From Ephemerocybe angulata (Eukaryota; Basidiomycota; Agaricomycetes; Agaricales; Psathyrellaceae): DNA of 64,000 nucleotides. The stretch is from assembly GCA_013368325.1 (NCBI GenBank), contig JAACJK010000063.1, positions 372,001 to 436,000 on the forward strand. Reading direction: 5' to 3'. The translations under genes were made by a program, and so were the position numbers. The notes below the pieces were generated by a model. That model had not been told where the DNA came from. It made no database searches and was given only the letters and a program-made list of their open reading frames with translations. Positions 39,888 through 54,599 of this stretch are shown piece by piece (position 1 is the first letter of the stretch; every line of letters starts with the position of its first letter).

Positions 39888-41504
39888 ATGCTGTTGCCAC
39901 TGTTGGTCTCTGCGAGCGCCGTAGCTTGTGTTTCTGCACAGTTTCAAACCCTTCGTTTTCCATGCTCACAGCTCGTGACTGAGAGGCTCGATCCGTAGGT
40001 GCGGTCTTCTGATATCCATGGCAAATTCTAAGATGGCATCAATAGGTTGGTGACCCCAGGGCTGGTGTCGCCTCACCTTCATCAGATTGTCGGAGGGGTG
40101 AGTAGTTTGTCAATGTTCGAACGCAAACGCTGATGGTATACGACCTCGCTATGGCTCAGAATGCGTGAGTAATCCTCGAATGCATACAACTCACAGCAAT
40201 AAAACGTCCTTTCCACGCGGTAGCTTCAATATCACAATGGATCCGGCGAGAGGCAATATCGCAGAACTCTCAACCTGCACCACATGTCGCTTCAAGGAGG
40301 ACAAATCCAACTACTGGACCATGGTCATGTACTTCAAGCACCGCAACGGAAGCTTCATCCGAGTGCCCCAAATCGCAAATGAAGGGACTGGAGCCCCGAA
40401 TGGCGGTATGACCATATACTACATTCGCCCTCGCGCCCCTGCGAAGAACCTCAGCGTTACCGCATTTCGCGAGGTACGTCCACTTAGATAGCGGCTGAGA
40501 GTTTATCCTGGCTAATGTAAAATAGGGATTCCGCATGAGGGTGGGAGCTCCGAATGCCCGGAGTAACGCCTACGATGTGAGGAGCGGCGCTGTGAACCAG
40601 ACTACCTTCCGATGCTGGGATGGTACTGGAATAGGCCCTGGGACTCCATCAGTCGGTGCTTTGGATACAGTGAAGTTCCCTGCCCATCAGTGCGAGGGTG
40701 GGATACGCTCTCAGGTCTACTTCCCACAGTGAGTCCAACCCCTCCAGCTCATTATGGCGTGGCTCGACTGATAGACAATGAATATTAGATGCTGGGATGG
40801 GGTGAACCTCGACAGCCCGGACCACGAAGTGCGCCGCATTCAGTATTACTTGGTTCAGACACTCACATAGGCCCCAGAGTCATGTTACCCACCCATCCGT
40901 TGGAGCAGTCGATGGTGGAGGCTCCTGGATGTTCGGCACCGACTGCCCAGACAGCCATCCCGTCCGTCTTCCTCTCATCTTCATGGAGACGGTATGGGAT
41001 ACTAAGATCTTCAACGACAAATCTCTGTGGCCCGCCGACGGTAGCCAGCCTCTCGTATGGAGCATGGGTGATCCGTAAGTTGTCTCGTTCCTGACATACA
41101 TATACTCCCGTATGTGTGCTCACTCACTCGTGATGTATACAGCACAGGGTTCGGACATCACGCCGACTACATTTTCGGATGGGAAGGCGACTCTCTTCAG
41201 CGCGCTCTCGCTTCCGATCGATGTGTCTCTGCGGTGCCATCCAACTGCGATGTCCTCACCCTCCAAAGCGACAAAGAGATCAATCAGTGCACTCAAGCAC
41301 CCGTAGTCCCCGAGATCACCGAAGGGCGATGTGAGTACTTCTAGTCGATATTTTACAAGACACAAGCTGAAACATACCTCTAAAGATATCGATAAGCTCC
41401 CGGGATGTAACCCACTCCAAACAGGGCCAGAACCTGCGACCGTTGTCGCCAACTGTGATGCTGTCTCAACGACAATTGGATCTCCCAAACCAACTTCAGC
41501 CTAA
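39888..41504 (+). CDS. DUF1996 secreted protein, paralogue B
   Basis: Nine exons (39888-39994, 40046-40097, 40160-40164, 40224-40473, 40526-40728, 40789-40828, 40878-41074, 41143-41330, 41386-41504) sum to 386 aa. The third exon is only five bases, AATGC. A signal peptide (MLLPLLVSASAVACVSA) is followed by the DUF1996 domain: LVTPGLVSPHLHQIVGG, NAFNITMDPARGN, CTTCRFKEDKSNYW, MTIYYIRPRAP, FRMRVGAPNARS, RCWDGTGIGPGTPS, GGIRSQVYFPQCWDGVNLDS, SWMFGTDCPDSHPVRLPLIF, GHHADYIFGWEGDSLQRAL and a C-terminal KLPGCNP. The His residues in the SPHLHQ and GHHADY motifs are family hallmarks. The domain's activity is unknown to me; the protein is presumably extracellular. Tandem with copy C. Confidence 0.9.
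40160..40164 (+). other. Five-nucleotide microexon (AATGC) of DUF1996 B
   Basis: Flanked by CTCAG and GTGAGT. Inclusion gives N-A-F-N in frame between HQIVGG and NITMDP, while skipping it would shift the frame. The same microexon is found in copy C (AATGC before GTAAGC) and copy A (AACGC, minus strand). Confidence 0.85.
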
Positions 41505-41926
41505 CGTTAGGTGCACTATTCGAGGGGTCTGCTGTAATTTTCGTTCTTATCGAGTCTAATATACAAGTATGGAAGTCCATATTATATATCCGAGGTCGTT
41601 TGGGAGCTACCCATCCCAATTGAAGCAATAAGTTTAAGCTAGATCCTCGGGGAATAAGGGACGAGGGAAATCCTTCTTATCATTCAGTTACGCTTCCTCG
41701 AGTCACTGCACATCACCATCAAATTAGGCCACGCTCCTCCAGCTCCTTCTCAGTACGACATAGATCGAGCAAGAGGACGTTCTATATTTACTACTCCTAT
41801 ATTGCCTCCCGAATTCTCATTGGCCAAGACGTAACACTCCAAGCTTCGTACCGAGGAATAGGCAGTGGATGAGAATTCAAGCGGCACAGTTTAAGAATGC
41901 GCCATTTTGAACAGTGCCATTCCTTC
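41505..41926. promoter_or_regulatory. DUF1996 C promoter (duplicate of the B promoter)
   Basis: 41670-41926 corresponds to 39590-39887, with some 40 nt fewer. No gene present. Confidence 0.55.
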
Positions 41927-43555
41927 ATGCCCCTTGTGAATCATGATGCTGTGCCACTGATAGTCACTGCTAGCCTCACGGCTTGCGTTTCTGCACAATT
42001 TCAGACCCTTCGCTTCCCATGCTCGCAGCTCGTGACTGAGAGGCTCGATCCGTACGTCGGCAACTTCCATATCATACCCCGAAGACAGGTTAACAACCTC
42101 TCAATAGCTTGGTGACGCCCGGACTGGTGTCACCTCACCTTCACCAGATTGTCGGAGGGGTGAGTGGTTTGTATACGCTTCAACGCAAACGCTGATGTAC
42201 AGTCTCGTCCTGGCTCAGAATGCGTAAGCGCCTCGGTTCGCGTAATGGGCACCGCATTTAGTAACTATTTCGTCGACATGGGACAGCTTCAACATCACCA
42301 TGGATCCTGCAAGAGGAAACATCGCCGAGCTATCGACCTGCACCACCTGTCGTTTCAAGGAGGACAAGTCCAACTACTGGACCATGGTCATGTACTTCAA
42401 GCACCGCAATGGAAGCTTCATTCGAGTGCCTCAGATTGCGAACGACTTCACCGGAGCCCCAAACGGCGGGATGACGATCTACTACATCCGACCCCGCGCA
42501 CCGTCGAAGAATCTCAGTGTCACGGCTTTCCGCGAGGTACGTCCTAAGAGCGAGGTGTCACTCATTTCAAAGATAACGCCATGTCCTAGGGATTCCGCAT
42601 GAGGGTTGGAGCTCCCAATGCCCGAAGTAACACCTACGACACGAGGAGTGGGGCCGTGAACCAGACTACGTTCCGATGCTGGGACGGGACTGGTATCGGA
42701 CCAGGAACGCCGTCTGTTGGCGCTTTGGATAGTGTTCAGTTCCCCGCCCACCAGTGCAAGGGTGGCATCCGCTCTCAGGTTTACTTCCCACAGTATGTCC
42801 TGTATTGCTGTATTAGAGGAACTTATCATCGATGGTTTATCATTATCTAGGTGCTGGGATGGCGTGAACCTCGACAGCCCTGATCACGAGGTATGTAGGC
42901 TTGGCAAGTCTACGTGCGCTAAAGCTAAATTGAGCTGTAGAGCCATGTTGCCCATCCATCCGTTGGAAAGGTCGATGGCGGTGGCTCGTGGATGTTTGGC
43001 ACGGATTGCCCAGATAGCCACCCTGTCCGCCTGCCCCTGATTTTCATGGAGACGGTATGGGATACAAAGATTTTCAATGACAAAGATCTTTGGCCCGCCG
43101 ATGGAAGCCAACCCCTTGTGTGGAGCATGGGCGATCCGTACGTCATCTCATTCGATTGATCCGTCGATTCCTGTGCCCATTCATCCAACCAGCACTGGAT
43201 TTGGTCACCACGCGGACTACGTTTTCGGGTGGGAAGGAGACTCTCTCCAGCGCGCGCTTTCTTCTGACCGCTGTGTATCGTCCCTACCGGAGAACTGTGA
43301 CGTCCTCACACTCCAAAGCGACAAGGAGATTAACCAGTGCACTCAAGCGCCCGTCGTCCCTGAGGTCACCGAAGGTCGTTGTGAGTTATCGTCCTGAGTG
43401 AAATTAAAAAACGTCACGTTGAACGTATATCCACAGATCTCGAGAAGCTCCCAGGGTGCAACCCACTTCAGGCCGGACCAGAGCCCGCTACTACAGTAAC
43501 CAACTGTGATGCAGTCTCGACGACTATCGTGTCTCCTAAACCGACGTTAGTCTAG
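41927..43555 (+). CDS. DUF1996 secreted protein, paralogue C (altered N-terminus)
   Basis: Tandem duplicate of copy B with the same exon order and a 5-nt microexon (AATGC, between CTCAG and GTAAGC, near 42222). The domain motifs are all present: LVTPGLVSPHLHQIVGG, NAFNITMDPARGN, CTTCRFKEDKSNYW, GGIRSQVYFPQCWDGVNLDS, GHHADYVFGWEGDSLQRAL, KLPGCNP. The start differs. Against copy B one T is missing early in the signal-peptide codons (CTGTTGCCA in B, CTGTGCCA in C), so the ATG that aligns with B's start is out of frame. The in-frame ATG at 41927 gives MPLVNHDAVPLIVTASLTAC, a poorer signal peptide with Asp and His inside. Confidence 0.85.
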
Positions 43556-44018: not shown

Positions 44019-44725
44019 TTACTTCTTCCCTCCCTTCTTGCCCATCTGGCCTCGACCGCCCTTCTTCCCCCCGCTCTGATCCTTCTTCGCGTTCCCCTTG
44101 GCGGTAGCTTTTGTCGACCTCAGCACCTCACCAGGATGATGTCCAGCCCGCATGGTTACGACCAAGTCAACGATTGAGTTCTCGGTCAGCCCGCTATCCA
44201 CAAGCTTAGTCGTGTCCGACATCTCTTTTCCATCAAGATTCAGGTGCATATCTGCCACCGGGATTTTGGGATATCGTCCCTGGTGGAGGTTGTCCTTGAC
44301 GGATTTCCATGTGGCGACCTGGGCGTAGGCTGCAAACCGGTATGTACCGCCCGAGGGTTCCCTGATCTTGAACTGGACTAAGGTGTTGCGGCCTTGGAGC
44401 GCATCTTCGTATTCCTCCAAGGTACGGTGGTAGAGCATGAGGGCGTCGTATAAATGGTCTCTGGCTAGGATGGCCAAGTCTCCGCCATGCATGACGGAGT
44501 CACTGCGACCAAAAATGTCCAGTTCGTCGGCCTCGAACACAGGACCGCGCTCGCTGAGTTCGTAGGAGTCGAAGCCGCGTTCTTCGAAGAGGTTTGTAGA
44601 CTATATGTGACAACCTTTAATGTCATTATAGTATTAGTGAGGAAAGCACGCACTGCTGCTACCAGACCGCATTTCGACGCGAAGAGTATGGACGTAGCCA
44701 GTGTTGCGGTGAAAGGGAATCGCAT
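44019..44725 (-). CDS. Secreted ubiquitin-like-domain protein 1 with Lys/Gly-rich tail
   Basis: Two exons on the minus strand (44725-44654, 44600-44019) give 217 aa. Exon 1 encodes exactly a signal peptide (MRFPFTATLATSILFASKCG..). After NLFEERGFDSYELSERG and an amphipathic helix (YDALMLYHRTLEEYEDAL, about res. 75-92) comes a region (about res. 98-177) that follows ubiquitin strand by strand: VQFKIREPSGGTYRF for the first hairpin, WKSVKDNLHQ for the helix, IPVADMHLNLDGKEM for the I-P-..-L-I-F-A-G-K strand, and SIVDLVVTMRAG for the final strand. The last 40 residues are almost all Gly/Lys with some Ser, Ala and Gln. I know no named family with this layout. The function is unknown. The partner copy lies at 53897-54599. 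Confidence 0.8.
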
Positions 44726-44831
44726 TGCTGGGGAGTCGACGGCGGGGGAGTACTAGGCTTTAGATAAAGTTTGGTATTAAGTGGAGAGAGTGACCTTTAA
44801 ATATTAATAAGGACTGAATAGAATGCCTGGG

Positions 44832-44861
44832 TATCAGCGCCCTGGACCCACCTAACGCACT
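44832..44861 (-). promoter_or_regulatory. 30-nt promoter block shared with ubiquitin-like gene 2
   Basis: The reverse complement of this stretch is identical over 30 nt to 53763-53792. It lies 107-136 nt before ATG 44725; the other copy lies 105-134 nt before its ATG, in the same orientation relative to the gene. The surrounding promoter sequence is not obviously similar, so the block looks selected. Confidence 0.8.
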
Positions 44862-46050
44862 GTCGGTACAGTGACCCTACTCTCCTGTTACCCAAAATTT
44901 CATGCACCTACCCTTCCTACATCCAGTTATTGGAAATAAAACACACCGTATACACATATAATGTATACGAGGCATGAGAAATGGTTAAATGTGGGAGTAA
45001 TTCTCGGTTCAACGCCTTTTTATCTGTGTCTGAAAAATAGGCGCCCAAAACGAACATTCAAACCTGCCCTCAAGCATTCCAAGTAATGTATCTTTCTGAT
45101 ACTACCTGCGCGCACTACCCCCTGAGTATGCGATATACCGGTTGAATGTGCCGCGAGAAAGATATACCGACTACCTACATGGTCAATATACATGATCACA
45201 CAGCCGTGTGTGACCTCGAAATATCTGTCAGGCTCTACGTACGCGTGATATACAGTGATGCTATGTAGTATCTATATCAGACACCGCCTGTTACCTAGTC
45301 ATTCAACGCATACAGTCTCTGCAGTCTCTGACGCCGTGCCTTTTCTATAGACTAAAACAGACAGATGAGAGCCCGAGGCCCGATGTGCGCCTGCACTGGG
45401 TAGGCACCGCGGAGCTGAGTAGATATACAAGGAATTATTCTCGTGCGAGATACAGCTGTCGAGCTTGACAGTATCGTACTACTGAACATATACCGAGTGT
45501 GTCCCTTACCTTACTTTGTATGCGCCGTTGTTGGAGCTAAGACAGCGCCCGTCGTTTACGTTCGGGTAATTTGGGTAATTTGGGCGCATATATGCGCCCC
45601 TGATGGGCACCATGAGCTGGAAAAGGGAGGGTGTGGTGGGTATCGAGCCTTTCGGCATTATGTATGTGCTCCTCCCACTAAGTCGTAAGTTTACACAACA
45701 TGAATCCCGCGATATACATCTCTTTACAGTTTGTTCCAATGCTCATATCCATCTACTTCACCCTTCCAGACCGCCTCGGGGAACACAGTCCTTTTACTTC
45801 GGTACACAGGGTCACATCTGGATTGTCCCACAGATTTGAAACACTGTCCGCCTTTGATGCCAGCTACTTTGGTGATCGCGTTAACTCCTTGCATCAAAGC
45901 GTCGTGCGGAATATATGCTACCATGGTGTAGTTTCTGGGAAATAACTGGCCTGGTATAGTGACCCCAAGGAGACTCCGGTATAATATTGGCCCCAGCCTG
46001 AAGGTAGGGGTGCTTTCTAGAGTTTCCTTCCTCCTTGTCACGTCCACTGT
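44862..46050. other. Intergenic, no gene recognised; contains an 18-bp palindrome
   Basis: A perfect palindrome GGGCGCATATATGCGCCC is at 45582-45599, preceded by two GGGTAATTT direct repeats. The rest has only unsupported short frames. Confidence 0.5.
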
Positions 46051-46051
46051 G

Positions 46052-46099
46052 AGAGGTCACGCCTATAGCACGTGAAAGGTCACACCTAGCGTGACCTCT
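46052..46099. promoter_or_regulatory. GGTCAC inverted repeats in the PRP6 promoter
   Basis: AGAGGTCACGC (46052-46062) and its exact reverse complement GCGTGACCTCT (46089-46099) flank a third GGTCAC at about 46078-46083. They lie 64-111 nt before the PRP6 ATG. MPDU1 has comparable GGTCAC/GTGACC palindromes at a similar distance. Confidence 0.55.
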
Positions 46100-46162
46100 G
46101 CAGAACGCTCAGTCCTGAGTCGTTTGAACTTCAACCTCCAACACCGTCAATAATTGTCGAAG

Positions 46163-49100
46163 ATGGCGAGCGCGAAGGACAACAAGAATAAGCTGGCGTT
46201 CCTGTCAATGCCGGCGCCAGCGTCGTATGTCGCTGGTCTTGGTCGAGGGTACGTTTAAAATGACTTTTGACGCATGCATACAGGCTAGACAACTGACAAC
46301 TGTACAGCGCGAGCGGGTTTACTACCCGGTCTGATATCGGACCTGCTAGAGAGGGTCCCAGCGAAGAGGTTATAGCGTGCGTATTCCCCCACACATGCGT
46401 ATTTCTAGTGCTAAATTGGCCGGCATATATTGCAGTGAAGCCCGCGCAAAACGAGGCGAAGAGGCGGAAGTGGACCCTGAGCAGTTCCAAGATCCTGACA
46501 ACGAATATGGCCTTTTCGCCGGTATGACATATGAAGCGGACGATGAGGAGGCAGACAAGATCTACGAACAGGTTGACGAGGCGATGGATATGCGAAGGAA
46601 GGCGCGGAGGTGGGTTCAATGGTTAGTATTCGCATATGTTTAATAGATGCGCTGACTTCATCGTTTTTTCCCTATTTCCTCATCGCCATGCGACGAATAA
46701 CTTGCACTACTCGTCGACATTATCTTTGAACCTCACCGGCATACCTCGACTGACCCTTCACTCGACTTGTATGCGACCATTCCGGGTGCGCGGCTTGACT
46801 CGATGCATCGCCATCCTGTACCGATATCCAGAGAAGCTCGCGAACAAGAACTCCTCTCGCAACACCGCGCGGAACGCCCCAAAATCCAACAGCAATTCGC
46901 CGACCTCAAGCGCGGGCTGTCCCAAGTAACCGACGCCGAATGGGAGTCCATCCCGGAAGTCGGGAATCTGACTCGACGGAAGCGGCAGAGAGGTAACGAG
47001 CGAACGTACGTCGTGCCTGACAGCGTGATTGTGGGCGATAGAGGAAAGGGAGAGTATGAGAGTAGCTTGGATCCTATGCAGCAACAGGTGTGTCGAAAAC
47101 GGCTCTGGTTCGCTTCAATATGCTAATATATGCTAATGCTCTACTACAGAGTGGCGGCCTTGCTACCCCAGCAGACGGCGCTATGACGAATTTCGTCGAA
47201 ATCGGTCAAGCGAGAGACAAGATTCTGTCCCTGAAGCTCGACCAAGCCACCAACGGCTCCTCCTCGTCATCATCTGCGTTTGCCTCCGGCACTTCGACCT
47301 CCATCGACCCCAAGGGCTACCTCACCTCCCTCGATACGCACGCGTCGACCATTAAGTCCGAAGCTGAAATCGGCGATATCAAGCGCGCGAGGATGCTGTT
47401 CGACAGTCTCGTGAAGAGTAACCCGAAGCACGGACCTGGGTGGATTGCGGCAGCGTGTCTGGAGGAGCACGCGGGTCGGATGGTCGCTGCGAGGAAGATC
47501 ATCAAGAAGGGATGTGAGGAGTGCCCGAGGAGCGAGGACGTGTGGCTCGAGGCTGCTAGGTTACATGTGAGTCTTGATATATGCGGGTTTTTGGAGGTAC
47601 TGATCCGGTTCGTAGAACAACGATGATGCGAAGGTTATATTGGCGAACGCGGTGCAGCATGTTGGACAGAGCGTCAAGATTTGGCTCGCTGCTGCGGATT
47701 TGGAGCACGATGTAAAGGCGAAGAAGCGGGTACTTCGGAAAGGTGAGTTTGCCGTGCCTCGTGTTCGTCTGGCTTCTCATCTCTTTTAGCGCTCGAACAT
47801 ATCCCCACGTCGGTCAGGCTGTGGAAGGAGACTGTCAATCTCGAGTCGTCACCCTCGGACGCACGGATCCTTCTCGCACGAGCGGTCGAAGTGATACCCT
47901 CGTCTGTCGAGCTGTGGTTAGCGCTGGCGCGACTCGAGACCCCTGAGAAGGCGAAGGGTGTCCTGAACAAGGCGAGGAAGGCCGTTCCGACGAGCTGTGA
48001 AATCTGGATCGCGGCTGGGCGCTTACTCGAGCAGGAGGTGTCGAGAGGTGAGGTGAAGAAGGAAGAAGGGGTACAAGAGAGCGAGGAGGACAAGAAGAAG
48101 AGGGAGAAGATGTTGCTTGCGGTGGACAAGACGATCGAGACGGGTGTGAAGGAGCTCCGGAAGCACGGCGTTCTCCTCACACGCGAGCAGTGGATCACCC
48201 AGGCGGAGAAGTGCGAGGCGGAGGGATCGTTGAGGACGAGCGAGGCGATTGTGAAGGCGACGGTGTCGATCGGGTTGGACGATAATGGCGAGGAGTCGTC
48301 TGAGGATGAGAAGTATGATATTTGGGTGAGCGATGCGCAGGCGAGTGAGAGTAGGGGCTCTATTGGGACGGCGAGGGCGATATTTGCGTATGCGCTCAAG
48401 GTGTTCCCGCATCGGTCGTCGCTGTGGAGGTTGGCATCGGCCCTGGAGAAGGCGCATGGGACGCCGCAGTCGCTCATCGCGCTGCTCGAGACGGCGGTGT
48501 CGTACTGCCCCACGGCGGAAGTGCTGTGGTTGATGTTGGCGAAGGAGATGTGGGTTGGGTTGGGCGATGTAAGGGGAGCGAGAGGGGTGCTGGAGCGCGC
48601 GTTTGAGGCGAATAGTGAGAGTGAGAGTGTGTGGCTTGCGGCGGTGAAGCTTGAAAGTGAGAGTGGGGGCGAGAAGGGCGGGGAGGTTAATGTTGCGAGG
48701 GAGCTTTTGGGACGGGCGAGGAGTGTCGCTGGAACGCAGAGGGTGAGTCGTTGGTTATTCTCTTTCTCCTTCAGGCATTTGTCAACCATTCGGACGTTCA
48801 ACGCTTGGGCGCCTATTCTTGGTGTCCTGGCTTCATATTTACCGGAAGACGCCGGCTCTTCTCCTACATCTTTCAGTATTTCGTTTAAGTAGCCATTGGA
48901 ACTAACCACGTTATCATTTAGATCTGGATGAAATCGGCGGTCTTCGAACGTCAACAAGGAAACTACGACGTAGCTCTCTCTACCGTATCCGAAGCGATCA
49001 AGAAGTTCCCCAAGTTCGACAAGCTCTACATGATCCAAGGCCAGATCTACCACGAGCACAAGAAAAACATCCCTGCTGCACGTTCAGCATACGCAAACGG

Positions 49101-49743
49101 GCTGCGCGCCTCCCCCAAGTCGCCGACTCTATGGATACTCGCGTCGAGGTTGGAGGAGGCGGATGGGAAGAGCATCAAGGCGCGCTCGTTGTTGGAGAAG
49201 GGACGTCTTGCAAACCCCGGCGAAGAGCGGTTGTGGGCGGAAGCTGTGCGTGTCGAGGAGCGGGCGGGGGGAGGGGCTGGGAATGCGCAGGCGAAGGCGC
49301 TTCTCGCGAGGGCGTTGCAGGAGTGCCCTGCGAGTGGGCTGCTGTGGAGTATGGCGGTGTGGGCTGAACCCCGACCGGCGAGGAAGGGGCGGAGTGTGGA
49401 TGCGTTGAAGAAGAGTGCGGAGGATGGGAGGATTGTGTGTACGGTCGCCAGGCTGTTTTGGAGCGAGAGGAAAGTGGAGAAGGCGAGGGAGTGGTTTAAG
49501 AGGACGGTGAATGCAGAGGTTGGCGAGATTGGGAGGGGGTTGTGGGGCGATGGGTGGGGCTGGTGGTTGAAGTTCGAGAGGGCGTATGGGACGGAGGAGC
49601 ACAGGGAGATTGTGAGATCGCTCTGCGCGGCGGCGGAGCCAAGGTATGGGGAGGTGTGGGCTGCTGTTAGTAAGGATGACCGGAATCGGGGGTTAGGAAC
49701 GAGGGGCATATTGGAGTTGGTGGCGGATAAGTTGGAGACGTAG
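46163..49743 (+). CDS. PRP6: PRP6/PRPF6-type pre-mRNA splicing factor (U4/U6.U5 tri-snRNP)
   Basis: Eight exons (46163-46248, 46308-46376, 46436-46609, 46832-47087, 47150-47566, 47616-47742, 47790-48742, 48922-49743) give 967 aa; human PRPF6 is of similar size. The PRP1 N-terminal domain is clear: [53 protein letters not shown] and ERPKIQQQFADLKRGLS. From about residue 230 the protein is a long array of HAT/TPR-like helical repeats with the W..A..E/LE pattern (GPGWIAAACLEE, KIWLAAADLEHD, ELWLALARLETP, SLWRLASALEKA). The factor bridges U5 and U4/U6 snRNPs in the nucleus. A lysine/glutamate-rich insert (EVKKEEGVQESEEDKKK) is lineage-specific. Confidence 0.96.
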
Positions 49744-51959
49744 GCGCGAGGGCCGATAGGGTTCGGGCGTCTCTTTTTTGCGCGCCTGGCTGAGAATTCG
49801 GTGTGTAGAACAGTCTGATTGTTGAACTCAATATCGCTTTGTTTCATCTGAATACCTGAGGCTATAGATACATTCACAGAGTCGTACAATGTGCGTTCCA
49901 GCCCTCTTTCCCTCCTTTCGGTCGCCTCCGAGAGAAAACTGAATTGCACTCCACTTTTGGAGCGTGGCGTCGGTGAGTACATTCACGCTCACTATCGACG
50001 AACCGAGGCGGAGTTACATCGCCGCCTGCAGGACGAATAAGTGGATTTTACAATCGCTGCTCAGCGATTGGGCAATCTGAGGCGTCGAAACGTTTCAAGT
50101 CCCCACATGTGTGGCTTTCATGATCTCCCTTCGGCTGTGCGCTGATTGGTATGCCACAGAATTGCACGTTGAGGACTGCATACTTAGAAGCCGGCGTGTA
50201 GAGTGCCTGCCGATCCTCACACATGATCATTGAGCCCTGGACAGGGAAGGACGCGCTACCGACGCTCTAGACTACGATTAGTGCATGGTGGAATGATGCG
50301 CCCACTAGCTGCGTCGCGAGGAATATTTTGAGCGCCCGCCAATCCATAACTCGAGTTTTTCGACTGCGATGAGCGCACCTACCGGTGGGCGCTCAATTAT
50401 CCAGGGCAACGAATGTGTCCACTCAAACTTGGACAATCCTACTCACTGCAGGTTCGAACCGGCAATCAACAGTACTACTTCAATATCCAAGTTCAAAGAG
50501 GGGCGCAGGATTCCCCATAGTTCAAGATGAGATCGTCTTGGCGGGTGGGCTGAGCTACATGGATACGAGCCGTCATGCGTTCAAGGTAGGTGCGAAACGA
50601 TATCGGCCTGGCAGATATCTTAGCACATGTCATCGCCTATAGAATTGGAAAAGTGACTGCCACGGTTGGAAATTCACTGAGGAGCATCTTTCCTATACCT
50701 ACTTCAGCGGTCGGGGCCCGGAGAGCTACCCTCCTCCTGATGGTGAAGGCGAAGGTGGTAATGACGGTGATAATGAGTCGGAAGAGTCGGTAGTATAGAG
50801 TTCATTTAGGATACCAATACAAATGGCGGTCCCGTGGACTTCGATAACTTCGATTCAGCCCCTCGATGATCACACCTTCCACAGCCTATCCGGATGGTTC
50901 TATATAGCACTTCGGGCTGGTAAAAACGCGGGATACCATGCGGTTTAAAGATCGTTTGGCGTTTCTATGGTGAATGGGAAGATGTATGATATTTGGCCAG
51001 GCAGTATGCTGACTGTTATTCTGCCAGAGCGAATGCGAATGCTTTGAGTTATTGTGATACCGGGACATTGTGAACGGGAGTGTAGGTGCCCATGTGGAGC
51101 AAGGAGGTGCTGGGTTAAGTTTAACTCCTGTTTGAAATTCATACCTGATGCATGGAGGCAAAGTCCAGCACGTTCCCGTGGAATGTATACCGAGATCTGT
51201 CAGCAGCGGCAACGAGGAGTAATAACCTTTGAGCCGGTTTGCCAATACACGGCGAGCGAGAACATGCTTCGTAAGTAGTGGTTACACGGACACAACTTGA
51301 AGGCCGCAGCTACTGGTCCAAATAAGAGTTCGACTGTAGAATAATTAAGAGGTTAGTGCGAGGTGATATCTGGTAGGAAGGAGGTAAATAGTAGGGCCTG
51401 GTAACTTCGGGTCAATATATACTATTCAATCTGCTGTGAGGTCAGCGTACCATACACCGGTCGTCTGTAATAACTGCATCCATTCTGGGGCACCTCGAGG
51501 TAGATGAGGGGCACCAGAAGAAGGAAGGATGCCCTCGTTCCTATGCTCTTGATCGAGCCCCTGCTGCGGTCTGCGAATCTTTCATCGCAGTATCGCCATT
51601 GATCCAAGTCCTTCTGAACCCCTTTGCCTCAATACGGGTGTGACCGGCGGCTGCGTGCCATTCTTTGCCAATTTTCACCAAGGCTGTACATTTAACCTCT
51701 ACCATCCCTCGATCTTATGCCTCGAGGGCAAACTCGCCGGGAATTGGGGTGCATCTTACGATATTTAACTCTCGACTTTGGGCGAAGGGTTGTAACTTAT
51801 TGGGACGACTTGCGGCACTCCTTCCTCGCGGTCCTTTTCCCACTCAAAGTTCTCCCCAAACTCCTACAATTTATCTATTGCATCGGTACGTTTAACTCCT
51901 TTGTCGACTGGCCAAGCCCTTAACCTGAGACCTTGTAGTCGACTGTCTTCACTTCTACG
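49744..51959. other. Intergenic, no gene recognised
   Basis: Over 2 kb with only short unsupported frames. A GGTTCGAACC stretch near 50450 resembles a tRNA B-box but has no tRNA fold around it. Confidence 0.5.
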
Positions 51960-52940
51960 ATGGCTCTCGCACCCACCCCGCAATTTCCAGGAGGTGGGAA
52001 CATATCGTTTGATCGGCGCCCCGGCATCCAAAGAATCGATCAAGGGAGCCTCCTTCGTATTCTACAACTATCAACCTCTATCCCAGCCGACGACCCTATT
52101 GAAGGCATACAGGCCTCGCTTCCACGAGGATATCTCGGTCTCGCATGGAGGTCCCTGAACGGGTTCATGGTTGGGGAGCCATCTCTTTGGACGACAATCG
52201 TCATCACTCCCGACCGCCCATTCTCCAGCCTGAGACTGGTCGACTCTCCCTTGGCGAGCTACCTTCTTCGCTCAAACGGTAGACCACTCTTCGTTTATCT
52301 CCTCCCCGGATCGGTAGAGGGCGAGGCGCGTCATAGGATGGAGCGTGAGCAGGCCACTGCGGCTCTGTTGGCAGACGTCATTGAGAAGGACGGCCACAGA
52401 ATCCAAGCGCTAGTCGTTTGCACGCGCTGGAAATCATCACTGCTACGGGTTGGATGTATTATGGACCCTCAACGACTCCCGAAGCTACACCGGCTGGTCA
52501 TCAAGTCCACAATTGACGACGTTGGCCCACCCGACATTACTCTCCCAGCCACGTTTCACGACACACTTTCGACCCTCTTCGCCCTTTCTATTAACGCCGT
52601 GAATCTCTTCGACTTCTTAACATCCACAGAACGTCCACAAGATATCCTTGGGCTTCTTACCTCCCTCAAGATTACCGACCTACGTCCAGGAGCTGCTGGA
52701 TTCCCCGAAGACGGCCTGTCGATGATCATAGGTTTCATCGACTCACTCTTGTATCTTGCAGTCCTCGAGTTCGACGACTTCCAGATGGCGGAGAGACACC
52801 TTGGAATTTATGGACGTGTACCTCCCCGGGCCTCAGCCCCAACACAGGTTCAAACCTTGGAGGTTAAGAGTACGAGTCCATCGGCCCGATCCTTTCTCTC
52901 GCACCACGTCTCCCCCAGGTTCCTAATTGTAGAGCCTTGA
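51960..52940 (+). CDS. F-box/LRR-like protein of the basidiomycete-expanded type
   Basis: An intronless 326-aa frame. The N-terminal part contains a degenerate F-box-like helix region and the pattern LGLAWRSLNGFMVGEPSLWTTIVITPD. This corresponds to the V-C-R-x-W-x-x-x-A-x-x-x-P-x-L-W-x-x-I stretch that follows the F-box in the large mushroom F-box family. The rest is leucine-rich (LPKLHRLVIKS, LLTSLKITDL, LLYLAVLEFDD), consistent with irregular LRRs. Family members usually exceed 450 aa, so this copy may be C-terminally truncated. These proteins are presumed substrate adaptors of SCF ubiquitin ligases; the target is unknown. Confidence 0.6.
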   Translation: MALAPTPQFPGGGNISFDRRPGIQRIDQGSLLRILQLSTSIPADDPIEGIQASLPRGYLGLAWRSLNGFMVGEPSLWTTIVITPDRPFSSLRLVDSPLASYLLRSNGRPLFVYLLPGSVEGEARHRMEREQATAALLADVIEKDGHRIQALVVCTRWKSSLLRVGCIMDPQRLPKLHRLVIKSTIDDVGPPDITLPATFHDTLSTLFALSINAVNLFDFLTSTERPQDILGLLTSLKITDLRPGAAGFPEDGLSMIIGFIDSLLYLAVLEFDDFQMAERHLGIYGRVPPRASAPTQVQTLEVKSTSPSARSFLSHHVSPRFLIVEP

Positions 52941-53762
52941 TCTTCCACTCCAATATGCAATCTGCCTTCCTTTGATACGTTTCCATTTTCACTAGCACAG
53001 TCAACCTATGAGACGTTTCTACAGCTTGTCTGGCTCTACTTTCCGATGGTTTTCTCATGTTTCCTCGTGAATAGCTTACCAGCTCAGTATGATATATACC
53101 CATAGGCCTCATGTCCTAGCCGGATCGATGTCTCCTTCTGCCTTATATATGATACTTGTTAGATTGTATGTCTCTTTTCGTGTCCAGCCCACCGTTACAT
53201 CAATTACCTTTCTCGCACTTCTCAACTGTCACTTACTCGTAGTCACACTATGTATACTCGCATACCGCTTCCTCGCTACTCAGTCTTTTTTTCAACATTT
53301 CCTTTCCTCTTTTCTCCCAGTCCAGTCTGAATGTCGTTCCGTCCTATATGACGAGTAGACCTTGCAGTACAGGCGGGAACGTAGACTGGAGGGCCGGTTT
53401 GTTCGTCAAGTAACGTTCGGTTCACAGAAGAGGATTTAAGATATAAGATGGTTGAATATCGTGTCGGACGTTATAGAGCCAGTTTCTAGTATGTGACACG
53501 CGAAGAAGTTGGCTTGTGCGAGTTCGGGCTAGAACGAGATAAGCAACTTACACCTCACTTTAAACTCCTGTAGAGTTCTTGTTAAGGTCGACATTTTCGC
53601 TGATATTGGGTGCCAGTTTTCACCCACGGAGGAAGCGGACTTGACCTCATGTATGCGCGATGTCATTGTGTGTGTATATGGTGGGCATGGGCTCAGATAT
53701 TTGAATTTGTGAAAGCCCGGCACAGCAAGCTTGGGTAACAGACGAGTCAAGCAGCGTGCAAG
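52941..53762. other. Intergenic, no gene recognised
   Basis: Pyrimidine-rich sequence near 53130-53350 gives hydrophobic frames but no splice or domain support. Confidence 0.45.
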
Positions 53763-53792
53763 AGTGCGTTAGGTGGGTCCAGGGCGCTGATA
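53763..53792 (+). promoter_or_regulatory. 30-nt promoter block shared with ubiquitin-like gene 1
   Basis: Core AGTGCGTTAGGTGGGTCCAG continues to GGCGCTGATA. It is identical to the reverse complement of 44832-44861 and placed 105-134 nt before ATG 53897. Confidence 0.8.
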
Positions 53793-53896
53793 TAGAGTGT
53801 TAGATTCAGTTTTAACCATTTATAAATCTTGTATGAATCTAACTGACCTTCCCCACGCAACCCGATACTTCCATTCTCCCTCTCCACTTCCAAGAA

Positions 53897-54599
53897 ATGA
53901 GACTCTTATCCACTTCCACAATCGCTACACTCATTCTGGTAGGGGCAAGATGTGTCTTATCAGCAGTGCGTTCTCTCCTTGTGTATGGAGCTACTCGAGT
54001 ATACTTAACGCTGTAACGGTCAGGACGCCAACCTGTATGAGGAACGCAGCCTGGATGATTATGAACTCAGCGGGCGGGAAGCGTTTCTTGACAACGGCAA
54101 AGCGGGCCTGTTCGTTCGCGGCGACTCCATCATGGATGGTGCACACCTGTCCATTTCATCCAGGGACCCCATGCACGATGCCCTCATGACATATCAGCGT
54201 GCCCTAGAGGAATATGAGGACGACATACAAACTCGCCAAGTTGGCCCTCTAATCAGCTTCAAAATCAAGACCCCTATGGGTGACGAATACACATACAGAG
54301 CCTACGTCAGAGCGACAAGATGGAAATATATCAAGGACAAGCTACACCGCAGACGTTATCCTCAGATACCAATGGCAGACATGCACGTAAACTTTGCTGG
54401 CAAGGAGATGTTGGACGAGTCTATCCTTGCAGATGATGGGCTATATGAAGGCGCAATCGTCAACTTGGTCGTGACCATGCGAACCGGATTCAAGCCTGGT
54501 GAGAGACTGAGATCCACGGGGGGTGCGAAGAAGGGGGGTGGCCAGGTAAAAGGAGGGAAGGCAGGCAAGAAGGTCGATATGAAGGGAGGGAAGAAGTAG
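53897..54599 (+). CDS. Secreted ubiquitin-like-domain protein 2 with Lys/Gly-rich tail
   Basis: Two exons (53897-53965, 54024-54599) give 214 aa. Exon 1 is exactly a 23-residue signal peptide. Residues 24-45 (NLYEERSLDDYELSGRE) match paralogue 1, then an amphipathic helix (HDALMTYQRALEEYEDD, res. 74-90). Residues 100-177 resemble ubiquitin: ISFKIKTPMGDEYTY (first hairpin), WKYIKDKLHRR (helix, keeping the positions of ubiquitin Lys27 and Lys29), IPMADMHVNFAGKEMLDESI (matching I-P..LIFAGKQLEDGRTL, including the Lys48 position) and AIVNLVVTMRTG (final strand, RTG where ubiquitin has RGG). The domain is 78 residues against 76 in ubiquitin. The tail is Gly/Lys-rich and ends KGGKK. The similarity was judged by eye; function unknown. 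Confidence 0.82.

Follow-up and report, generated by a model that had tools for sequence, protein, structure and literature searches.

Does the ink-cap mushroom Ephemerocybe angulata export proteins built on the ubiquitin fold? The question was raised by a stretch of 64,000 nt of its genome (contig JAACJK010000063.1, positions 372,001 to 436,000; the whole stretch is called the window here), in which an earlier note had picked out by eye two paralogous genes, copies 1 and 2, for secreted ubiquitin-like (Ubl) proteins with Lys/Gly-rich tails. Ubiquitin-fold proteins are mostly cytosolic or nuclear. The observation of the paired genes was confirmed, and the core reading, that these are secreted proteins with a ubiquitin fold, a signal exon and a Lys/Gly-rich tail, was supported by profile matches, a predicted fold, the gene structure and a wider family of genes.

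Copy 1 (217 aa) lies on the reverse strand and copy 2 (214 aa) on the forward strand, and their exon-2 parts are 51% identical. Exon 1 of copy 1 (44654..44725) is a predicted signal peptide of 24 residues ending in GLVAA. It is followed by a phase-0 intron of 53 nt (GTGCGT...TATAG; 44601..44653) and by exon 2 (44019..44600). In copy 2 the corresponding parts are a 23-residue signal-peptide exon ending in VLSA (53897..53965), a phase-0 intron of 58 nt (GTGCGT...GTCAG; 53966..54023) and exon 2 (54024..54599).

The mature proteins begin with an acidic segment that includes a helix, spanning residues 25-96 in copy 1 (44385..44600; net charge -11) and residues 24-96 in copy 2 (54024..54242; net charge -9 over residues 25-96), the latter also seen in the AlphaFold2 prediction. 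The ubiquitin-fold domain occupies residues 97-177 (44142..44384) and 97-178 (54243..54488), respectively. The Lys/Gly-rich tails, given here with their stop codons, cover residues 178-217 of copy 1 (44019..44141; 10 Lys, 10 Gly) and 179-214 of copy 2 (54489..54599; 10 Lys, 11 Gly), each with a net charge of +10. No cysteine is present in the mature protein of either copy. The coordinates and the order of parts given earlier (signal exon, intron, helix, Ubl domain, tail) were right; the tail length of 37-40 residues held for copy 1 (40) and was corrected to 36 for copy 2.

Orthologues of both copies were found among the proteins of another strain (DFP72DRAFT_), namely P0002 (847996) for copy 1 and P0001 (847999) for copy 2. 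P0002 was identical to copy 1 at 200 of 216 aligned residues, and P0001 to the exon-2 part of copy 2 at 178 of 191. The last five residues, KGGKK, are the same in both copies and both orthologues. P0002 and P0001 come from contigs of equal length and their tags are only three apart, and therefore the pair has probably been kept in place between the strains.

The ubiquitin-like domain had been proposed by eye. In a six-frame scan of the 58.7-Mb genome with the Pfam ubiquitin profile (PF00240), both copies were found, at 22.2 bits and a genome-wide E of 0.0064 for copy 1 (G000:C77:416148-416312) and at 21.4 bits and 0.0107 for copy 2. The protein hmmscan gave E 2.7e-4 (21.1 bits) and 7.4e-4 (19.7 bits), respectively. 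The ubiquitin family did match both copies, yet in the genome scan and the hmmscan alike the scores stayed under the curated cut-off of 25.4 bits. Searching the PDB sequences with copy 2 by phmmer gave NEDD8 over residues 102-178 (E 0.013).

A hidden Markov model (HMM) of the ubiquitin family was also built from ten other sequences of the E. angulata genome and applied to 79 rows comprising the pair, the orthologues and the family described below (several rows being one gene twice). Both copies were among the 22 rows that beat all 20,000 shuffles; the remaining 57 were not clear of the shuffles under this model. AlphaFold2 predicted a ubiquitin fold, that is, a beta-grasp, for copy 2, with a predicted local distance difference test score (pLDDT) of 86-93 over the domain, and Foldseek and VIA agreed. 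Among the 50 rows listed, the predicted domain was superimposed on ubiquitin, NEDD8 and ISG15 structures over 72-80 residues with a root-mean-square deviation of 1.1-2.0 Å and 16-26% identity. An initial model made from 3 sequences (pLDDT 41) was excluded from the fold searches. The by-eye claim is now backed by profile matches and by the beta-grasp predicted for copy 2, and chance similarity to ubiquitin was rejected, since the genome scan, the shuffled sequences and the fold prediction all speak against it.

The PF00240 scan also gave other loci, in which a Ubl domain is accompanied by a similar helix and, in part, by a basic tail. Four such members, used as genome queries, gave 73, 75, 42 and 77 matches at E up to 10, a few of them plain polyubiquitin or the signal exon alone. 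When the 73-, 75- and 77-match searches were merged at E up to 0.001, with three rows of the last that matched the signal exon alone excluded, 76 distinct loci were obtained besides the pair (67 without the 77-match search), 21 of them on one contig (C139). The paralogy of the pair claimed earlier holds; the wider family of more than 70 loci had gone unseen.

Copies 1 and 2 are not among the 76 loci, and in single-sequence searches they returned each other and one weak match. On the other hand, an HMM made from 28 family models without the pair found copy 1 at E 0.001 and copy 2 at E 0.0085, and the best of 20,000 shuffles reached only E 5.6. Within the large E. angulata family, the pair forms a branch that has diverged, and it does not belong to the core.

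Gene models were obtained for 28 of the 30 family loci examined (L054 and L060 gave none; L028 and L033 lay outside the set), and 27 of the models were in phase 0, a figure that is not independent evidence, since the scoring gave preference to phase 0 and to intron lengths around 55 nt. The remaining, phase-2 model (L053) was taken as wrong, yet it was kept in the 28-model HMM. The Pfam ubiquitin profile matched 3 of 9 members scanned (best E 6.5e-6). By a loose pattern, the HRR of the leader is present in 25 of the 28 models. Kex2-type cleavage at this HRR is possible for the family; it was rejected for the pair, from which HRR is absent.

When 5.8 billion proteins were searched with a profile, 47 matched at E 0.001 or better, and every one of them is from E. 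angulata. No relatives outside this species were found by the protein searches, which need common 5-residue words and similar length and which distant relatives could escape. Of the 47 protein clusters, 29 have one member. One protein, P0003 (D9611_010405), is 100% identical to a family member read on contig C76. All 47 are named hypothetical by NCBI; UniRef gives a ubiquitin-like domain for seven of them and for P0001 and P0002.

Some loci showed other arrangements. By eye, the long open frames of L038, L042 and L049 resemble two or three Ubl domains behind one leader. In an ORF at L033 (G000:C86:1194500-1197500) a K/G-rich stretch precedes a weak ubiquitin-like match instead of following it; this locus may be a shuffled relative. 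Four diverged ubiquitin-like domains lie close together on contig C150 (L019, L020 and L021), three of the four being followed by a common downstream segment (KPVIYL...). L015 (G000:C43:112500-117500) holds near-identical diverged polyubiquitin repeats in a run, with interrupted frames.

Leader and domain have evolved differently in the family. For 13 loci of one leader type (78 pairs), the leader had a median synonymous divergence (dS) of 0.39 and nonsynonymous divergence (dN) of 0.08; in the Ubl domain of the same loci the medians were 1.24 and 0.92, figures that hard alignment inflates. Across strains, the best matches of 9 D9611 single-member clusters (those of 12 that could be split into leader and domain) to 29 DFP72 proteins, which may be paralogues instead of orthologues, were 84-97% identical in the leader, signal peptide included, and 26-75% in the domain. 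The pair behaved otherwise: 78 of 81 residues of the copy 1 Ubl domain were identical between strains, and dN/dS between the copies was about 0.2-0.43, with dS near saturation. By these measures the pair is a conserved branch, unlike the variable family.

A near-constant leader before a variable domain at 76 loci besides the pair would suit a family-wide repertoire for extracellular recognition, in which the Ubl domains bind for self/non-self recognition or for sensing, with the pair as an old member that has become fixed. The many single-member clusters and the members seemingly with two or three domains point the same way. However, relaxed constraint would also explain the fast change, the pair is not hypervariable, and no link to a receptor, mating or incompatibility turned up, no search having been aimed at one. 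We regard this explanation as unlikely.

Export was examined through the signal exon. A rule was applied that asked for ATG, K/R at positions 2-4, a hydrophobic core of at least 1.8, a GT[AGT]NGT donor, an intron of 45-80 nt and phase 0. Both copies and 23 of the 30 family loci passed, as against none of 77 control open reading frames (ORFs) of the window; the rule was devised after the family models were known, its core threshold sits just below copy 1 (1.81), and the controls are stop-to-stop ORFs, many of which are not genes. Among the submitted E. angulata proteins (P0001-P0049), 46 of 49 have a signal-like start, and the submitted model of P0002 uses the signal exon, with a signal peptide matching that of copy 1. 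By inspection, neither copy has an HDEL-type or KKxx end, a glycosylphosphatidylinositol (GPI)-type hydrophobic end or a further membrane segment. KKxx retrieval to the endoplasmic reticulum through the Lys end was considered and rejected, as the end GGKK does not fit. By their signal exons, both proteins would be exported in the living fungus.

Several observations weigh against the reading that we prefer, given below. The hydrophobic core of copy 1 is below that of every measured family model (minimum 2.02), and 7 of the 30 family loci fail the strict rule. The literal leader motif VPFQPSLRAFLEEA...HRR is not found in the pair, which reads RDHLYDALMLYHR (copy 1) and RDPMHDALMTYQR (copy 2) there, and basic tails occur in some family members only. 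To these are added the sub-threshold PF00240 scores and the two limits on the evolutionary comparisons given above. Finally, the submitted model of P0001 has an upstream exon (MYARSS...) in place of the signal exon. The same upstream coding start is open in the window (exons 53649-53661 and 53726-53763, + strand), can be joined to the acceptor at 54024 and reads MYARSSLGNRRVKQRAR, equal to the upstream part of P0001 except for one residue. A non-secreted form of copy 2 is possible on this basis.

The donor of that upstream exon falls inside a promoter element common to the two genes. A 30-bp sequence, AGTGCGTTAGGTGGGTCCAGGGCGCTGATA, is identical upstream of both, at 44832..44861 (- strand, starting 136 bases before the copy 1 ATG) and at 53763..53792 (+ strand, starting 134 bases before the copy 2 ATG). 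With up to 3 mismatches allowed, no further site for its 27-bp core turned up in the 58.7-Mb genome. A second common box, GGGTAACAG, lies at 44885..44893 (- strand) and 53733..53741 (+ strand), starting 168 and 164 bases before the respective ATG. The 30-bp identity has persisted despite near-saturated synonymous sites, and therefore the element appears to be under constraint. We infer that the pair is under joint control. As the P0001-type donor falls inside it, the element may also play a part in splicing.

These data bear on the possibility of dual localisation, in which alternative first exons joined to the same acceptor would give a secreted form and a cytosolic form. The P0001 model, the open upstream reading in the window and the position of its donor in the conserved element speak for such a scheme. 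However, the P0002 model uses the signal exon, the upstream readings possible in copy 1 are unlike that of copy 2, 30 bp exceeds the length a splice donor needs, and nearly all submitted proteins have signal-like starts. The upstream exon of P0001 may simply reflect a mistake of the gene caller. Dual localisation was judged very unlikely.

A similarly low probability was given to a structural or chaperone-like protein that resides in the secretory pathway or the cell wall and plays no part against other organisms. The conservation of the pair, the purifying pattern between the copies and their private promoter element are consistent with it, and the basic tail could bind anionic wall polymers. 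Against it stand the missing retention, anchor and membrane signals and a related family that is very variable and so far known from one species.

Could the pair still act as ubiquitin? The Lys positions and ends claimed earlier held in the alignment: copy 2 keeps K27, K29 and K48, copy 1 keeps K27 and K48 with Asn for K29, and RTG or RAG stands in place of RGG before the tail. Other positions are changed. I44 is replaced by Asn, R72 by Thr and Gly75 by Thr or Ala (from the NEDD8 alignment for copy 2, and for copy 1 through the alignment of the copies); at what we take to be position 8 in ubiquitin numbering, Leu is replaced by Pro in both copies. The hydrophobic patch L8-I44-V70 is therefore not kept and reads Pro-Asn-Val in both. 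Neither is the Gly-Gly end with Arg72. R72 is read by E1 enzymes, and L8 and I44 belong to the surface read by ubiquitin receptors. With these residues and the end changed, and with a tail of 36-40 residues following, conjugation and canonical ubiquitin recognition are disfavoured, and use as a ubiquitin tag is unlikely from the alignment. The same changes weaken the host or competitor mimic that the earlier note had offered besides an effector or a cell-wall protein. Copy 2 contains the words LR..GG AKK about 12 residues past the ubiquitin end, which are missing from copy 1. They suggested decay of a ubiquitin-ribosomal protein fusion, but this possibility was set aside for that position and for their absence from copy 1, with no search aimed at it.

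The order of signal peptide, ubiquitin and short C-terminal extension is that of the nematode proteins GrUBCEP12 and Hs-UBI1 in the available part of their description (PMC5632807). In an effector of this kind, the Ubl part would escort the tail out and be cleaved, and the tail peptide would act in a target cell. The similar length and charge of the two tails, and a KGGKK end that is constant in copies and orthologues, speak for it. On the other hand, the processing end LRGG is not kept, dN between the copies is higher in the tail than in the domain (0.50 versus 0.34), and many family members have no such tail. Moreover, the available text of PMC7368018 treats E. angulata, under the name Coprinellus angulatus, as a litter decomposer and not as a parasite. 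We consider a cleaved extension effector decidedly improbable.

The reading that we prefer starts from what was obtained by computation: the gene models, the predicted fold, the family, the conservation and the common promoter element. In it, the signal-peptide exon would route each protein into the secretory pathway, and the mature protein would comprise an acidic stretch with a helix at its end, a single domain of the ubiquitin fold and the strongly basic tail of Lys and Gly. Once exported, the protein would use its ubiquitin fold as a small stable binding scaffold and not as a tag. The tail may hold this scaffold on negative surfaces, such as the cell wall, the envelopes of other microbes or nucleic acid, and the acidic segment may balance the charge of the tail during export. 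In defensin precursors, an acidic part balances the cationic part.

The variable ubiquitin-fold domains of the family would meet changing outside partners. A near-constant leader with very variable domains fits such partners, and therefore antagonism or defence appears the most likely use; we infer this use, like the anchoring and the charge balancing, from the features above. That the pair are binding scaffolds which are exported, carry a cationic anchor and are not conjugated, likely for antagonism or defence, seems to us nearly an even matter, falling a little short of it. Extended to the whole species, the proposal is a more doubtful one, which we put forward tentatively: a repertoire at no fewer than 76 loci (at least that many) of secreted, non-conjugating ubiquitin-fold binders for antagonism or recognition, with the pair as a conserved, co-regulated, tail-bearing branch. 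If true, this repertoire would be the ubiquitin-scaffold counterpart of variable effector or binder families.

No account of secreted ubiquitin-like proteins of mushrooms, their export or their family was present among the top literature matches listed. The word ubiquitin is absent from the fungal effector structure paper PMC9816061 and from the main texts, as far as available, of two papers with the E. angulata genome, one of them PMC7368018.

Between the two copies lies a HAT/TPR-repeat gene (47066-49743), pieces of which match TPR, PRP39-type and Syf1-type profiles. Other neighbours are a GST, a zinc-type dehydrogenase, two DUF1996 pieces, a PQ-loop gene and a sugar-transporter-like piece (below its cut-off); two further pieces gave no profile match. 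No sign of a ubiquitin pathway or a mobile element was found among the ten neighbouring pieces scanned. The two DUF1996 gene pieces adjoin copy 1 in tandem (40102-43305, + strand) and have a long identical stretch.

How does the pair compare with known systems? It has in common with ubiquitin, NEDD8 and ISG15 (PF00240) the beta-grasp fold, as predicted for copy 2, and differs from them in its signal peptide, acidic leader, changed L8, I44, R72 and Gly75, and the tail past the ubiquitin end. ISG15 has two ubiquitin-like domains and an LRLRGG end. It is also active outside cells (PMC12304407).

The cyst nematode proteins Hs-UBI1 and GrUBCEP12 are secreted and, like the pair, have a ubiquitin fold and then a short C-terminal extension; GrUBCEP12 is processed to free ubiquitin and a peptide (PMC5632807). 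Orthologues of the nematode ubiquitin extension proteins also have a signal peptide (PMC5705921). Unlike them, the pair has an extra leader between the signal peptide and the domain, and its domain is divergent (at most 26% identity in the structure matches listed) instead of a near-canonical ubiquitin with a cleavable LRGG end. BfUbb of Bacteroides fragilis is secreted and is an antagonist of other strains; like the pair as we read it, BfUbb has a signal sequence, is without the last glycine and is not a conjugation substrate (PMC5705921). Unlike the pair, BfUbb is 84% similar to human ubiquitin, the similarity beginning directly behind the signal sequence, and has 76 residues, with no leader helix or tail (PMC5705921).

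Crinkler (CRN) effectors form large families with a domain modelled as ubiquitin-like and some signal peptides (PMC6131194). In them the N-terminal header is conserved and the C-terminus varies; in the E. angulata family it is the leader that stays conserved, and the variation falls in the ubiquitin-fold domain. The Pfam matches listed for the pair, which extend to E 10 with filters that drop most above 0.1, do not include the Crinkler header profile PF20147, and the genome matches of this profile fall at five other places, none of them family loci; Crinkler membership was rejected. These five matches, all over the cut-off (contigs C117, C60 and C151), place an effector-type domain in a mushroom regarded as a litter decomposer.

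An exported Ubl family in such a mushroom would be a further use of the fold, beside those in nematodes, Bacteroides and the Crinklers, and would suggest that a protein tag from inside the cell has been adapted by the fungus as a tool for the outside. The combination of a constant leader with variable ubiquitin-fold domains sets this family apart from the nematode proteins, BfUbb and the Crinklers alike, as these are described in the available parts of PMC5632807, PMC5705921 and PMC6131194.

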